Positions 33,937 through 51,704 of a stretch of 64,000 nucleotides of DNA are shown here, one piece after another. Both the position numbers and the translations under genes were made by a program. The stretch lies in NCBI RefSeq assembly GCF_009827615.1, contig NZ_WTYU01000002.1:665020-729019 (forward strand). Direction: 5' to 3'. Position 1 is the first letter of the stretch. The number at the start of each line of letters is the position of its first letter. This stretch comes from Allopontixanthobacter confluentis. GTDB lineage: Bacteria > Pseudomonadota > Alphaproteobacteria > Sphingomonadales > Sphingomonadaceae. The notes under the pieces were generated by a model, which saw only the letters and a program-made list of their open reading frames with translations, did not search any database and was not told the DNA's origin.

Positions 33937-35078
33937 CCATGCCGCCTGCCATTGGCCCAGCGACGTTACCTGCCTCTGCTTCCAGCCCAGCTTCTGGCCA
34001 GCGCCCGATCCACGCGCTGACCGGCCTGCGCGGCGTGGCTGCGTGGTGCGTGGTTTTCTATCACATCCGATACAGCCTGACAGCGATCCTGCCTGCGTCT
34101 GCAATCGAATTTATGGCCAAGGGCTATCTCGCGGTTGATCTGTTCTTTCTGCTGTCGGGCTTTGTCATGTGGCTCAATTACGGGGCAGTCTTTACCAGCG
34201 GCGGATTGCGCGCCGCGCCGCGTTTCTGGTGGAAGCGTTTTGCCCGGATCTGGCCGCTTCATGCACTGGTTCTGTCGGCAATGGTGGTTTTTGCCCTCGC
34301 CGTGCTGCTGACCGGACGCGATGCTTCGGCCTATCCGGTCGGGGAATTGCCGCTGCATATTCTGCTGATGCAGAACTGGGGCATGACCGGGCAACTGGCA
34401 TGGAACCACCCGGCATGGTCGATCAGTGCGGAATTTGCCGCCTATCTGCTGTTTCCGCTGCTGGTGACAGCAGTGCCATGGCCGCGCATCGGGACATGGG
34501 TGCTGGCGGGCGTTGCAGCGGGGCTGGCAATGGGTCTTTACCTGATTTTTGCACTGCAGGGCCACGCCACCTTGGGGGCGGATATCACGCATCTGGGCTT
34601 GTGGCGCTGTCTGGCGCAATTTTCGATGGGCGCGGTGCTGGCGCTTGTGTGGCAGCGCCATGGCGGGCAAACCATGGCTTTGGCGGCATGGGGGGCCTGC
34701 GCTGCCATCTTGGCAATCGCTTTGCTGGCAGATCTGCCAGAAACAGCCTTTGTCCCGGCCCTGTTTGCAGCGGGCCTGCTGGCATTGGCGAGCGACCGGG
34801 GCGCGGCCGGGCGGCTGTTTGCGGCACGCCCGCTGCGCTGGCTGGGTGACATAAGCTATGCCACCTATCTGCTGCATTTCTTCGGCTTTGTGCTGTTCAA
34901 ACTGATGTTTGTGGATGCCAGCCTGCAAATGGGCTGGTGGCAATTGCTGGCATTTGGGGCCCTGTTGCTGGCTGCATCCGACGCGGTTTTCCGCTGGTTT
35001 GAAAAGCCTGCCCAGCGCTGGCTGAATACGCATTCGCCGCGATTCGCGCAGCGGCAGTCAGGCGCGGCGGCCCGCTGA
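33933..35078 (+). CDS. Acyltransferase family 3 membrane protein
   Basis: Integral membrane acyltransferase of 381 residues, probably O-acylating a surface sugar. The N-terminal IHALTGLRGVAAWCVVFYHI carries the conserved Arg and the catalytic-type His. YLAVDLFFLLSGFVMWLNYG and FARIWPLHALVL follow as in other family-3 members, and about ten helices can be traced. The ATG at 33933 overlaps the ligase stop by 4 nt, which sets the start; the frame is open further upstream but antisense-like. The link to the ligase suggests it decorates the same glycan. Confidence 0.9.
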   Translation: MTMPPAIGPATLPASASSPASGQRPIHALTGLRGVAAWCVVFYHIRYSLTAILPASAIEFMAKGYLAVDLFFLLSGFVMWLNYGAVFTSGGLRAAPRFWWKRFARIWPLHALVLSAMVVFALAVLLTGRDASAYPVGELPLHILLMQNWGMTGQLAWNHPAWSISAEFAAYLLFPLLVTAVPWPRIGTWVLAGVAAGLAMGLYLIFALQGHATLGADITHLGLWRCLAQFSMGAVLALVWQRHGGQTMALAAWGACAAILAIALLADLPETAFVPALFAAGLLALASDRGAAGRLFAARPLRWLGDISYATYLLHFFGFVLFKLMFVDASLQMGWWQLLAFGALLLAASDAVFRWFEKPAQRWLNTHSPRFAQRQSGAAAR

Positions 35079-35118
35079 AGCCGGTTTGCCGGTGCCAACG
35101 GTTGCGGCAAGTCTTGAT

Positions 35119-35131
35119 TGCCGTAACGGCA
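35119..35131. promoter_or_regulatory. Perfect short palindrome upstream of maoC
   Basis: TGCCGT and ACGGCA flank a single A, in the 134-base gap before the MaoC gene. It could be an operator for a fatty-acid type regulator, or part of a terminator for the acyltransferase gene. The sequence alone does not decide. Confidence 0.35.
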
Positions 35132-35212
35132 GGCTCGGGCGCGTTGCGCAAAGCCTTCCAAGGTGCCATGTAGCGGCCATTCCCATCGTAACAGCGGTTA
35201 GAGGAGAGGCAT

Positions 35213-35662
35213 ATGAGCCCACAGGATATTGCAGCAAAAATTGGCGAAAACATCGGCACCAGCGAATGGGTCGAAATGAGCCAGGACCGGATCAACAAAT
35301 TCGCTGATGCGACAGGTGATCACCAGTTCATCCATCTCGACGAAGAAAAAGCCAAGATGACGCCGTTTGGCGGCACCATCGCCCACGGCTTTCTGACCTT
35401 GTCGATGATCCCCTATCTCACGGCCAATTCCGATGTGCCGCGTGTGGATGGCATCAAGATGGCCGTGAATTATGGCGGCAACAAAACCCGTTTCATCTCG
35501 CCAGTGCGATCGGGCAAGCGCATTCGCGGCCATTGGAAGCTGACCGAAATGACGGAAAAGCGCCCCGGCCAGTGGCAGCAATCGTGCGAAATCACCATCG
35601 AGATCGAAGGCGAGGAAAAACCTGCCCTGATCTGTGAATGGATGACCCAGTATTTTGTCTGA
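35213..35662 (+). CDS. MaoC-family (R)-enoyl-CoA hydratase/dehydratase
   Basis: Hot-dog-fold hydratase of 149 residues, related to MaoC and NodN. The catalytic region reads INKFADATGDHQFIHLDEEK with the Asp-x4-His pair, followed by TPFGGTIAHGFLTLSMIP. A strong GAGGAGAG ribosome-binding site precedes the ATG. It lies 47 nt ahead of a thiolase, so the two probably act together in acyl-CoA turnover; some family members feed (R)-3-hydroxyacyl-CoA to PHA synthesis. Substrate chain length is not known. Confidence 0.88.
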   Translation: MSPQDIAAKIGENIGTSEWVEMSQDRINKFADATGDHQFIHLDEEKAKMTPFGGTIAHGFLTLSMIPYLTANSDVPRVDGIKMAVNYGGNKTRFISPVRSGKRIRGHWKLTEMTEKRPGQWQQSCEITIEIEGEEKPALICEWMTQYFV

Positions 35663-35709
35663 ACCCCTCCCCGGGATCGACCATCAAAGTTTAATTCAAG
35701 GAAATACCT

Positions 35710-36888
35710 ATGCGTGACGCAGTCATCGTCTCCACCGCCCGCACGGCCATTGGCCGGGCCTATAAGGGCGCTTTCAATTCCACATCGGGCGCCACGCTTG
35801 GTGCCTATTCCCTGAAACCGGCGCTGGAACGCGCTGGCATCGACGGCGCGGAAGTCGACGATGTGCTGTGGGGCTCCGCATTGCAGCAGGGCACACAGGC
35901 AGGCAATCTGGGCCGCCAGGTGGCGCTGCGCGCGGGTCTGCCCATTTCCGTTTCGGGCATGACCATGGACCGCCAGTGTTCTTCGGGCCTGATGTCCATT
36001 GCCACTGCCGCCAAGCAGGTGATTGTCGACCGTATGGATATCGTTGCTGCTGGCGGGCAGGAATCAATCAGCCTCGTGCAGACGCCGGAAATGCGCGTCG
36101 CGCCTGACCGCGAACTGATGGCGATGCACCAGTCCATCTACATGCCCATGCTGCAAACCGCCGAAACGGTGGCATCACGCTATGGCATCACCCGCGAAGC
36201 GATGGATGAATATGCCCTGCAGTCGCAAATGCGCACTGCCGCTGCCCAGCAGGCGGGCAAATTCGATGATGAAATCGTGCCCGTCACCACCACCCACAAG
36301 GTGAAGGACAAGGAAAGCGGCGAAATCAGCGATGTTGAAATCACCATTGCCAAGGATGAAGGCAACCGTCCCGAAACCACGCTGGAAGGGCTGTCCAGCC
36401 TGAAGCCGGTGATGGGCCCTGACATGACGATCACGGCCGGTAATGCGTCGCAGCTGTCCGATGGTTCCAGCGCTTGCGTGGTGATGGAAGCCAAGGCCGC
36501 TGAAAAGCGCGGGCTGACCCCGCTGGGCCGCTATGTCGGCATGGCTGTGGCCGGCACGGAGCCTGATGAAATGGGCATCGGCCCCATTTATGCCATCCCC
36601 AAGCTGCTCGAACGGTTCGACCTCAAGGTCAGCGATATCGGCCTGTGGGAACTGAATGAAGCATTCGCCGTGCAGGTGATCTATTGCCGTGACAAGCTGG
36701 GCATCGATAACGATCTGCTCAACGTCAATGGCGGCTCCATCTCCATCGGCCATCCCTATGGCATGACCGGCGCACGCTGCACCGGCCACGCGCTGATCGA
36801 AGGCAAGCGCCGCGGTGCCAAATACGCAGTCGTCACCATGTGTGTCGGCGGCGGCATGGGCGCAGCGGGCCTGTTCGAAATCTTCTGA
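35710..36888 (+). CDS. Acetyl-CoA acyltransferase (thiolase)
   Basis: Thiolase of 392 residues. The nucleophile is Cys90 in TMDRQCSSG, the His is in [16 protein letters not shown] and the second Cys is in [19 protein letters not shown] is also present. The divergence of HPYGMTGAR from the common HPxGxSGAR suggests an acyl-CoA acyltransferase of fatty-acid oxidation rather than a PhaA biosynthetic enzyme, though this is not decisive. It follows maoC and is followed by a strong terminator hairpin. Confidence 0.92.
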
Positions 36889-36910
36889 GAGCGGAACATT
36901 TCGCTGAATT

Positions 36911-36960
36911 GCGGCGTTTCGGGGCATGGTTTTCTTGCCCCCGAAGCGCCGCTTTTCTTT
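36911..36960 (+). terminator. Strong rho-independent terminator after the thiolase gene
   Basis: Arms GCGGCGTTTCGGGGCA (36911-36926) and TGCCCCCGAAGCGCCGC (36936-36952) pair almost perfectly and are followed by TTTTCTTTTG. The hairpin contains the start codon (36926-36928) and the first codons of the downstream lipoprotein gene. Confidence 0.85.
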
Positions 36961-37582
36961 TGCCGCCACACTGGCTCCGGTCCTTGCCGCGCTGCTGCTG
37001 GCTGGCTGCGGGCCTTCCGGACAGGGCCAGCAACAAGAGGGCGAAGCTTCCACCAGCACCAATCAACCAGCGCCCGTGTCCGATGACGCGCAAGCGAGCA
37101 CGGTCGCCGCGCCAGAACGGTTCAGTTCTGCATATGGCAAGCTGCAATTCGATGATTGCACGGTGACTCGAGAAGCTACCGAGGGTTACTTTGTTGACCG
37201 GCGCTGCCCGGGCCGAGAGGGCATCGCCATTTTCCTGCATGACGGCGATGGCCGCTACGATCTGGATGCGGGCGTTCCCAACGACCAGTTCCAGAGCATC
37301 GGCGCGTTCAATTCGATTGGCGATACGCTGGAATGGCGGCTGGATAATGAAACTGCCTTTGCGGTGATTTTCCGCCTGTATGACGCGACACGTGAAGATC
37401 GCGGGCGTTCGGTTCTGGCGGTCGAGAAAATCGGCGCCGCAAATTCTCCGGGATGCCGCGTGGCGCAGATTGCCGGTGACACACCGCAGGCCAATCAGCG
37501 CGCACGCGCCGTCGCCGATACTGCAGCCGCCAGTTTCGACTGCACTTCAGGCAAGATCAGTTTCATCGGCGATGCCCGTTAA
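36926..37582 (+). CDS. Putative lipoprotein of unknown function
   Basis: A 218-residue protein with a basic N-terminus (PPKRRFSF), a hydrophobic segment and a lipobox LLLAGC with Cys at about residue 28. A Gln/Ser/Thr-rich linker follows, then a globular part containing CTVTREATEGYFVDRRCPG and later NSPGCRVAQIAG, with several conserved-looking cysteines. No domain is recognised. The ATG lies inside the thiolase terminator, but no later start in this frame would keep the basic segment of the signal peptide, so it is retained. The mRNA must therefore start within or just before the hairpin, or read through it. Confidence 0.75.
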   Translation: MVFLPPKRRFSFAATLAPVLAALLLAGCGPSGQGQQQEGEASTSTNQPAPVSDDAQASTVAAPERFSSAYGKLQFDDCTVTREATEGYFVDRRCPGREGIAIFLHDGDGRYDLDAGVPNDQFQSIGAFNSIGDTLEWRLDNETAFAVIFRLYDATREDRGRSVLAVEKIGAANSPGCRVAQIAGDTPQANQRARAVADTAAASFDCTSGKISFIGDAR

Positions 37583-37643
37583 GGCGCTTGCCTTTATCCC
37601 GTTTACGCCGCATTTTTGCGAATGATGTAAAGGAATTGGCCAG

Positions 37644-38264
37644 ATGGGCATCGTGGAAATTCTGGGTATCGCAGGCAGTGTCAGCCTGCTGTCCGGCTGG
37701 CGGCTGTATCTCAGCATCGTGGCCACGGGCCTCGCCATGCAATGGGGCGCCATTCCGCTGCCTGACCATCTTGCCAGTCTGCAGGTTCTGGCCAGCCCAT
37801 GGGTGATCGGCATTGCCGGCGTTGCAGCCATAACCGAATTCTTCGCAGACAAGGTGGCATGGCTCGATAGTATCTGGGACACCGTGCATACGCTGATCCG
37901 GCCTGTGGGCGGCGCCTTGCTGGCGCTGGCCATCGTCGATCCGTCGGACCCGGCCACGCAGGTTATCGCCTTTATTCTGGGCGGCGGCGGCGCGCTGTTG
38001 GCGCATGGCGGCAAGGCGGGTGCGCGGGCGGTTATCAACACCAGCCCGGAACCTGTTACCAATGTGGCAATGTCGGCAGCAGAAGATGTGGCCACCGCCG
38101 GTCTGCTCTATGCCGCTTACGAATATCCCTATGCCGCAGGCGCGATTGCGCTGGCATTGCTGGGCCTGTCAATCTGGCTGCTGATGCTGGCTCGGCGCGT
38201 AATACGGCGCATTTTCAACGCCGGGAAATTCAATGCCGGAAAAAAAGCCCCGCCTGCGGTGTAA
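37644..38264 (+). CDS. DUF4126-family membrane protein
   Basis: Multi-pass membrane protein of 206 residues with four or five hydrophobic helices. The pattern GSVSLLSGWRLYLSIVATGL, then ITEFFADKVAWLDSIWDTVH and LLAHGGKAGARAVINTSPEP, is what I associate with DUF4126. Function is unknown. The C-terminus is basic (RRVIRRIFNAGKFNAGKK) with a short GKFNAGK duplication. It converges with phaZ, and a shared terminator overlaps its last codons. Confidence 0.8.
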   Translation: MGIVEILGIAGSVSLLSGWRLYLSIVATGLAMQWGAIPLPDHLASLQVLASPWVIGIAGVAAITEFFADKVAWLDSIWDTVHTLIRPVGGALLALAIVDPSDPATQVIAFILGGGGALLAHGGKAGARAVINTSPEPVTNVAMSAAEDVATAGLLYAAYEYPYAAGAIALALLGLSIWLLMLARRVIRRIFNAGKFNAGKKAPPAV

Positions 38265-38276
38265 ACCGGCAGGCGG
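38240..38276 (-). terminator. Terminator of phaZ (leftward)
   Basis: The arms CCGCCTGC (38250-38257) and GCAGGCGG (38269-38276), with extra GGT/ACC pairing inside, form a stable hairpin. On the minus strand it is followed by seven T residues (38240-38246). TTTT at 38282-38285 may allow weak rightward termination as well. Confidence 0.85.
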
Positions 38277-38294
38277 CGCACTTTTCAGCACCCG

Positions 38295-39548
38295 TCAGGA
38301 AACTGCCTTGAGGTTTGCTTTGCCGGATGCGCCATGTTTGGCGAAGAAGGCTTCTGCAACCGGCGCGACCTTGTCGCGCCAGCGGCTGCCGTTGAATATG
38401 CCGTAATGTCCCGCGCCTTCGGCCAGATAATACTGCTTCTGGCCCGCTTTCAGGCCGGTGGCCAGATCAAGCGCGGCCTTGGTTTGGCCGATGCCGGAAA
38501 TATCGTCCCGCTCGCCTTCGACAGCCAAAATGGCGGTTTGGGTAATCCTGCCCAGATCCACCACCTTGCCGCGATGTTCGAAGCTGCCGTTGGGGATGGA
38601 ATGTTTCTGGAACACTTCTTCCACCGTCTGCAGATAGAATTCTGCCGTCATGTCGCAGACAGACCGGTATTCTTCGTAGAAATCCTTGGTCGCATCGGCG
38701 CTGGCATCATTGCCGGCGTTGATATGTTTGAACATTTCATAATGGCTCTGCATATGCGCGCCCAAGTTCATGCTCATGAAACTCGCCAGTTGCAGGAAGC
38801 CGGGATAAACGCGCCTGCCTGCACCGCGGTAGCTCATCGGGACCGTGGCAATCACGGTCTGGCGGAACCATGCAATCGGGCGTTCCATCGCCAGATCATT
38901 CACCGTGGTCGGAGATTTGCGCGTATCAATCGGGCCGCCCATCATGGTCAGGGTGACAGGGGCGGCAGGATTTTTGTCCGCATTCATCAGCGCCGTTGCT
39001 GCCAGCGCCGGAACAGATGGCTGGCACACCGCCATCATATGCGCGCCCGGGCCAATGAATTCGAGGAATTCGATCAGATAATCGATGTAATCATCGAGAT
39101 CGAAGCTGCCTTCGCTGGTCGGCACGGTGCGGGCATCCGCCCAGTCGGTGATATAAACCTCGCAGCTTTCGATCATCCGTTCGACAGTGCCGCGCAAAAG
39201 CGTGGCGTAATGGCCGCTCATCGGGGCCACAATCAGCAGTTTCGGCGCGTTTTTCGGCAAGCCTTCGCGGGTAAATCTGAGCAGATCGCCGAACGGCTTG
39301 GTCAGCACGATGGATTCGGTCACGCCATGCGACTTACCGCTGATGGCAACGCTTTCGATGCCGAATTCAGGCTTGCCGCGCGGCGCTGCTGCATGGGCGA
39401 AAACTTCAAGTGCAGAGGCGGCTGCGGGGCCAAGGCCCATATAACCCATTGGCAACAGGGGGTTGCCCAGCATTTCTGCGCCAATGGAGGCCATGGCGCT
39501 GGCGCTGCTCAGCCATGCGCGCTGTAATTCATGTGCGTGATAGAGCAA
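38295..39548 (-). CDS. phaZ: Intracellular polyhydroxyalkanoate depolymerase
   Basis: Degrades stored PHB/PHA granules to hydroxyacyl units in the cytoplasm. The 417-residue alpha/beta hydrolase has the family motif HMMAVCQPSVPALAAT with nucleophile Cys175. APMSGHYATLLRGTVERMI, VYITDWADAR and the His-bearing EGAGHYGIFNGSRWR end follow the family pattern. The start is taken as TTG at 39548 because AGGGA sits 7 nt upstream and it gives MLYHAHELQRAWL, the usual family N-terminus; the frame continues upstream to an ATG at 39602. It is divergent from the ABC exporter. Confidence 0.93.
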   Translation of the reverse strand: MLYHAHELQRAWLSSASAMASIGAEMLGNPLLPMGYMGLGPAAASALEVFAHAAAPRGKPEFGIESVAISGKSHGVTESIVLTKPFGDLLRFTREGLPKNAPKLLIVAPMSGHYATLLRGTVERMIESCEVYITDWADARTVPTSEGSFDLDDYIDYLIEFLEFIGPGAHMMAVCQPSVPALAATALMNADKNPAAPVTLTMMGGPIDTRKSPTTVNDLAMERPIAWFRQTVIATVPMSYRGAGRRVYPGFLQLASFMSMNLGAHMQSHYEMFKHINAGNDASADATKDFYEEYRSVCDMTAEFYLQTVEEVFQKHSIPNGSFEHRGKVVDLGRITQTAILAVEGERDDISGIGQTKAALDLATGLKAGQKQYYLAEGAGHYGIFNGSRWRDKVAPVAEAFFAKHGASGKANLKAVS

Positions 39549-44043: not shown

Positions 44044-44088
44044 AGCGCCCCTTCTGCCCGGTAATCCGGTGCAGGAGGGGCGCTTTTT
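44044..44088 (+). terminator. Rho-independent terminator after the M13 peptidase gene
   Basis: AGCGCCCCTTCTGC pairs with GCAGGAGGGGCGCT around an inner CCGG-TAAT-CCGG stem (44044-44084), followed by TTTTT at 44084-44088. Confidence 0.92.
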
Positions 44089-51670: not shown

Positions 51671-51704
51671 AAGCGGGCGAATCGCCAATCCGATCCGCCC
51701 GCTT
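51671..51704 (-). terminator. Terminator of the 104-residue lipoprotein gene (leftward)
   Basis: AAGCGGGCG (51671-51679) and CGCCCGCTT (51696-51704) are perfect 9-bp arms. On the minus strand they are followed by TTTTCCTTT, as expected for intrinsic termination of the gene ending at 51771. Confidence 0.75.

Follow-up and report, generated by a model that had tools for sequence, protein, structure and literature searches.

In Allopontixanthobacter confluentis, the start codon of a lipoprotein gene lies within a terminator-like hairpin behind the thiolase gene, and an exact match to the promoter motif of EcfG, the general stress response sigma factor of alphaproteobacteria, extends into the 5' arm of the same hairpin. 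We consider it rather probable that the stress promoter, the terminator and the start together constitute a nested double lock of 70 bases, by which the lipoprotein would be produced under stress only. The locus of this marine-type bacterium has been analysed in a window of 64,000 nucleotides (G000:C2:665020-729019, where G000 is the A. confluentis source genome), and its features are compiled in Table 1.

Table 1. Features around the lipoprotein gene start, in window positions.
Feature	Position	Strand	Remarks
MaoC-like dehydratase gene, upstream of thiolase	35213..35662	+	Pfam PF01575, E 5e-27
Thiolase gene	35710..36888	+	Pfam Thiolase_N + Thiolase_C; orthologs in 6/6 genus genomes
Predicted sigma-EcfG promoter, whole match	36893..36918	+	GGAAC-N17-CGTT
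GGAAC, -35 box of the predicted promoter	36893..36897	+	exact match, directly behind the thiolase stop
Terminator hairpin, predicted	36911..36952	+	5' arm 36911-36926, loop 36927-36935, 3' arm 36936-36952
CGTT, -10 box of the predicted promoter	36915..36918	+	in hairpin 5' arm; 17 nt after GGAAC
Lipoprotein gene	36926..37582	+	218 aa; signal peptide MVFLPPKRRFSFAATLAPVLAALLLAGC; lipobox Cys codon 37007-37009
ATG, lipoprotein gene start codon	36926..36928	+	within hairpin; first usable start in frame
T tract TTTTCTTTT	36953..36961	+	directly 3' of hairpin

The start codon within the thiolase hairpin

The thiolase and lipoprotein genes are located on the same strand with 37 nt between them, and the thiolase stop codon is found outside the hairpin. 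A near-perfect hairpin with a T tract had been noticed at this place in the preliminary description, and the folding analysis has confirmed it: a 5' arm of 16 nt (GCGGCGTTTCGGGGCA) pairs with a 3' arm of 17 nt (TGCCCCCGAAGCGCCGC) that contains one bulged C. The 91-nt stretch around the hairpin has a predicted energy of -44.8 kcal/mol as compared to -28.7 ± 3.3 kcal/mol in 200 dinucleotide shuffles (z -4.92), of which none has been as good. A strict scan for hairpins followed by T tracts has given 68 matches in 464 kb of G000, only six of which are more stable than this one. A first terminator scan has not returned it, probably because the loop of 9 nt exceeds the limit of 3-8 nt used there. 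The possibility of a repeat element has been rejected, as the arm pair occurs a single time within the 64-kb window. In its stable GC-rich stem followed by TTTTCTTTT, just past the stop codon, the structure resembles intrinsic (Rho-independent) terminators, from which it differs by its 9-nt loop and by holding the start codon of the next gene and a -10 box. Judged from these sequence features, it probably ends the thiolase transcript.

The ATG is composed of the final base of the 5' arm and two loop bases, and the first codons, as had likewise been described, span the loop and the 3' arm; the 3' arm codes for the basic KRR of the n-region, the T tract for the subsequent FSF. A misannotated start has been considered and rejected. 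The reading frame opens just six codons upstream, behind an in-frame TGA at 36905-36907, no ATG, GTG or TTG has been found in frame 5' of the hairpin, and the only candidates before the lipobox cysteine, ATG 36926 and TTG 36935, are both situated inside it. As no start candidate exists between the TGA and the hairpin, the start must be in the hairpin. A start well downstream, which the preliminary description had named as the case against its reading, is excluded in A. confluentis, where no start codon is present there, and is realised in other genera. No clear Shine-Dalgarno sequence precedes the ATG.

Regarding the gene product, KRR, a hydrophobic stretch and the lipobox LLAGC succeed one another as in bacterial lipoproteins, and the lipobox cysteine (Cys28) is invariant among the orthologs aligned (alignments A1 and A2). 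The domain search has given just a sub-threshold match to DUF3558 (17 bits vs a cut-off of 34.1), and a structure search against the PDB has returned 0 matches at E ≤ 0.001; the AlphaFold model used has a mean pLDDT of 72.7, with residues 9-60 below 50.

The rarity of starts in terminators of G000 can be given only roughly. A coding filter leaves 62 of the 68 strict matches, and the five starts listed in this filtered scan all fall within longer frames; the thiolase hairpin itself has been removed wrongly by the filter, presumably owing to an antisense open frame across it. Unfiltered, the scan contains 14 start candidates without an earlier in-frame start before the hairpin, including ATG 36926 and TTG 36935, and we take the remaining 12 to be mostly antisense frames.

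The candidate sigma-EcfG promoter

Within about 100 bp upstream of the lipoprotein CDS, a perfect match to GGAAC-N16/17-CGTT has been found, with 7 nt between its end and the ATG. For Sphingopyxis granuli, the EcfG consensus has been given as GGAAC-N16-CGTT (PMC7083833). For Sphingomonas melonis it is GGAAC-N17-20-GTT, and some of the motifs listed there are only 2, 8 or 10 nt away from the predicted CDS (PMC6599016). The candidate shares with these sphingomonad promoters the boxes, the spacing and the nearness to the start codon, and differs from them in that its -10 box forms part of a terminator stem. The same exact GGAAC-N17-CGTT, with an identical spacing of 17 nt, is located 8 nt before the ATG in Allopontixanthobacter sediminis (G004, NZ_WTYL01000002).

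The exact motif is not enriched in the genome (42 matches vs 80 for a reversed control), and the case for EcfG therefore rests on position and conservation, the latter referring to two genomes of one genus. Between these, GGAAC has been kept in 5/5 positions, whereas just 2/13 of the first spacer positions are identical; the third codon positions of the thiolase gene are 67% identical. When the upstream 110 nt of the two species, G000 and G004, were shuffled 300 times, 0 and 1 of the shuffles contained an exact 9/9 site. The genomic count would agree with a chance match, in which case the gene would be driven by another, unrecognised promoter within the hairpin or 5' of it, and the same holds for L034, L035 and L036, in which no credible EcfG site has been seen (best 5-6 of 9). 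Against this stand the exact sites at identical spacing in two species, the rarity of such sites in shuffles and the conservation of boxes amid a randomised spacer, and we regard a chance match as unlikely. A sigma-70 promoter for the lipoprotein gene has been rejected, since a simple consensus scan of positions 35000-39000 has found none on the + strand.

Among the 68 strict hairpins of G000, only the one at 36911-36952 overlaps with an exact EcfG motif, and in the four genus members without the lipoprotein gene no exact site has been seen between thiolase and hairpin. The genome encodes NepR (PF18557 at G000:C2:911346-911450, 60.5 bits, above the cut-off), which is preceded on its own strand by an exact EcfG motif at a distance of ∼150 bases, and another exact motif precedes a frame which we take to be PhyR.

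Across the 23 orthologs described below, the site is exact in 2 (both g1), 8/9 in 10 and at most 7/9 in 11, and part of the 8/9 sites are made up by the loop and tail of terminators. The site is weak in L037 and L038, and in g5 the sequence TGAAC-N16-CGTT precedes the Shine-Dalgarno sequence and ATG. In L019, L023, L025, L026 and L030, which have a separate terminator, the GNRA loop GGAAA and the tail CGTT together yield an 8/9 match, located 23-36 nt before the lipoprotein ATG. Such matches may indicate that a promoter is superimposed on the terminator, or that terminator sequences are biased. The idea that the terminators of the family look like EcfG promoters in general has also been considered: matches of this kind number 13 in 175 kb of family loci, a redundant set chosen around and enriched for the lipoprotein locus, vs 3 in 464 kb of G000, from which we conclude nothing.

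Start position and predicted start opening among relatives

A family search in 397 genomes has given matches in 30, of which 23 have been taken as orthologs (E below 1e-60) and 7 weaker ones (L041-L047) have been dropped. According to calls made by eye on the folds, the start is within the hairpin in 10 of the 23, from five lineages of the family: G000 and G004 (g1), four of g5, L034, L037 and L038 (g7), and L035 (g86). In another 7 the gene start is found 3' of a terminator that precedes it, and in these lineages the lipoprotein gene has its own ribosome site. The comparison with related genomes, as proposed in the preliminary description, has recovered the arrangement in the first group and a different one in the second. 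The other 6 comprise L036, which starts 2 nt past the thiolase stop, and five with an intervening gene and no such hairpin. Overall, thiolase is immediately upstream in 17/23 orthologs, and another gene is between in 6.

The opening energy has been calculated as the cost to free positions -16 to +6 around the start, with the long read-through RNA spanning -130 to +60. In this RNA, opening takes 30.4 kcal/mol in G000 and 27.3 kcal/mol in G004, and the start codon of G000 alone is 0.44 unpaired even there, because it borders the loop. For short RNAs, with a transcription start position assumed relative to CGTT, the predicted energy falls to only 2.1-2.6 kcal/mol in G000 (first base 0-2 nt before the ATG) and to 0.9-9.3 kcal/mol in G004 (0-3 nt), where it is set by the exact first base: the start is still paired if the RNA begins 2-3 nt upstream (6.0-9.3 kcal/mol), and a clear lock of the phage T4 type is predicted only for RNA whose first base is that of the ATG or the one preceding it. 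In g5 the corresponding change is from 30.1-33.6 to 6.5-12.9 kcal/mol, and all seven relatives with a start downstream of the terminator show 6.0-10.1 kcal/mol. From the energies of long and short RNA it follows that the long RNA is predicted to be locked and the short one open. The suggestion that read-through would hide the start codon and that transcripts begun inside the hairpin would free it hence agrees with the predictions, with an EcfG-type match placed accordingly and a drop from 30.4 to about 2 kcal/mol.

Taking into account that the two genes are same-strand neighbours at a distance of 37 nt, and that thiolase adjoins the gene in most orthologs, read-through of the thiolase operon might be the main source of lipoprotein expression, with the hairpin serving as attenuator or translational coupler. 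The missing Shine-Dalgarno sequence, the 30 kcal/mol to open the start, the thiolase stop outside the hairpin and the intervening gene in six orthologs make this very improbable. In L037, moreover, a gene has been inserted, and the start hairpin is found at the lipoprotein gene and not at thiolase. The inserted gene of ∼317-352 aa, found between thiolase and lipoprotein in L027, L028 and L037 of genus g7, has a product of the form MxGRWPxLDF...SVYxTVHAxLQVIGKLPTRALPWCNHSWH, which presumably resembles DUF5996.

The chief rival of the nested lock is passive genome compaction, by which shrinking intergenic space would have pushed terminator and start together; the start would be hidden without a regulatory role, and the 3' arm (CGC/AAG codons) and U tract would happen to suit a basic n-region and a Phe-rich start. 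We hold this to be possible but not probable. Spacings between thiolase stop and start are indeed shorter for in-hairpin genes directly behind thiolase (34-71 nt) than for those with a downstream start (68-142 nt), the coding start in g5 (CGCCGCCCTTTCGTTT, RRPFV) is similar to the 3' arm plus tail (GCCGCCCTTTTCGTTT) of the terminator that L019 has separately, and the T tract is degenerate in 4/10 in-hairpin orthologs (G004, L035, L037, L038). Termination in G004 is doubtful because of its degenerate tract (CTTCGCAGC). Against compaction stand the 5' arm of G004, which is still complementary where the T tract has decayed and where neither coding nor termination demands it, and the four g5 species, in which not only the ATG but also the Shine-Dalgarno sequence AAGGAGAA is kept locked in the 3' arm (30-34 kcal/mol). 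By eye, only one-sided changes have been seen in the g5 stem (C-G to U-G, G-U to A-U) and no compensatory ones.

On the protein tree, many deep branches of which are weak, 5 changes are required to explain the in-hairpin state (4-5 among bootstrap trees), a value reached or undercut in 18/500 shuffles, and at least 2 changes are forced by well-supported branches. A wider reading, which we find rather doubtful, would be that this family has repeatedly, with about five origins at the same locus, turned a terminator into a terminator-promoter-start module: the 3' arm and U tract would have been exapted to encode a signal-peptide n-region and the 5' arm would carry or follow a stress-sigma promoter, so that one inverted repeat would end the upstream RNA, silence read-through and be bypassed solely by the stress RNA polymerase.

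Within the genus, a strong hairpin follows thiolase in 6/6 genomes, of which G000 and G003 also have a T tract, and the lipoprotein gene is behind thiolase in just two, G000 and G004. It has been lost in the other four (L009, L011, L012, L013). In G003 (L009) the canonical terminator has been kept and is followed by a DUF4126-type gene; in L011, L012 and L013 a depolymerase gene on the opposite strand comes directly next.

Proposed insulation from the thiolase operon and known systems

For the nested lock, one may postulate the following course. The thiolase transcript would terminate at the hairpin, and in RNA that reads through, the lipoprotein start would, according to the fold prediction, be shut in the hairpin without a clear Shine-Dalgarno sequence. 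Sequence and conservation suggest that the gene is driven by its own sigma-EcfG promoter, and as the -10 box is located in the 5' arm, the EcfG RNA would begin very near the ATG, a few bases away at most, and lack nearly the whole 5' arm. The 7 nt from CGTT to ATG point to an mRNA that is translated with no leader or almost none. Leaderless mRNAs are present in the same order in Zymomonas mobilis, where they make up 119 of 2,675 TSS-gene pairs (PMC7566282). Only messages begun inside the hairpin would probably be translatable. As a net effect, the lipoprotein would be made under stress and be insulated from transcription of the thiolase operon. The preliminary description had proposed an unusual coupling of the two genes, which our analysis does not support: with a terminator, a sequestered start and a stress promoter of its own, the lipoprotein would be uncoupled from the operon, and insulation is the most likely role of the switch.

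In phage T4, the genes e, soc, 49 and I-TevI have sequestered starts, and late promoters are located in the 5' strand of the helix (PMC3014915). The likeness to gene e is that the long RNA hides the start in a helix, and that a promoter for another sigma factor, placed over the 5' strand, gives a short RNA without this helix. The lipoprotein lock differs by its location on a bacterial chromosome, by EcfG instead of gp55, by a hairpin that doubles as the T-tract terminator of the preceding gene and by a short RNA predicted to be leaderless. By this analogy the principle of the lock would be known, and the use of a neighbour's terminator, EcfG and the chromosomal setting would be what differs. 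In IS10 and IS50, the transposase is protected from read-through transcription by a hairpin that forms only in the read-through RNA and hides the start; these are mobile elements, and the hairpin is not the terminator of a neighbour. Among titles and abstract openings of the literature, we have recognised no description of a neighbour's terminator that contains an EcfG promoter or a bacterial start codon.

If the proposed course holds true, a bacterial gene would use the terminator of its neighbour as a translational lock that is bypassed only by an alternative sigma factor, a compact means to keep a stress gene silent. It further suggests a general reason for signal-peptide genes to begin on terminators, as a GC-rich stem reads as Arg/Lys/Pro codons and a U tract as Phe, and it serves as a warning that a gene start need not be an artefact when it falls inside a terminator.

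Two further strong hairpins have been observed in the window. The one at 44044-44084 (-37.7 kcal/mol on the + strand), which in the strict scan is the most stable of the window, has T-rich tails on both strands and is likely a bidirectional terminator, and a terminator hairpin at 51672-51703 on the - strand is located 33 nt upstream of the start of another small putative lipoprotein (MKRTTTLAFIALPLTAACLLAGCGG...).
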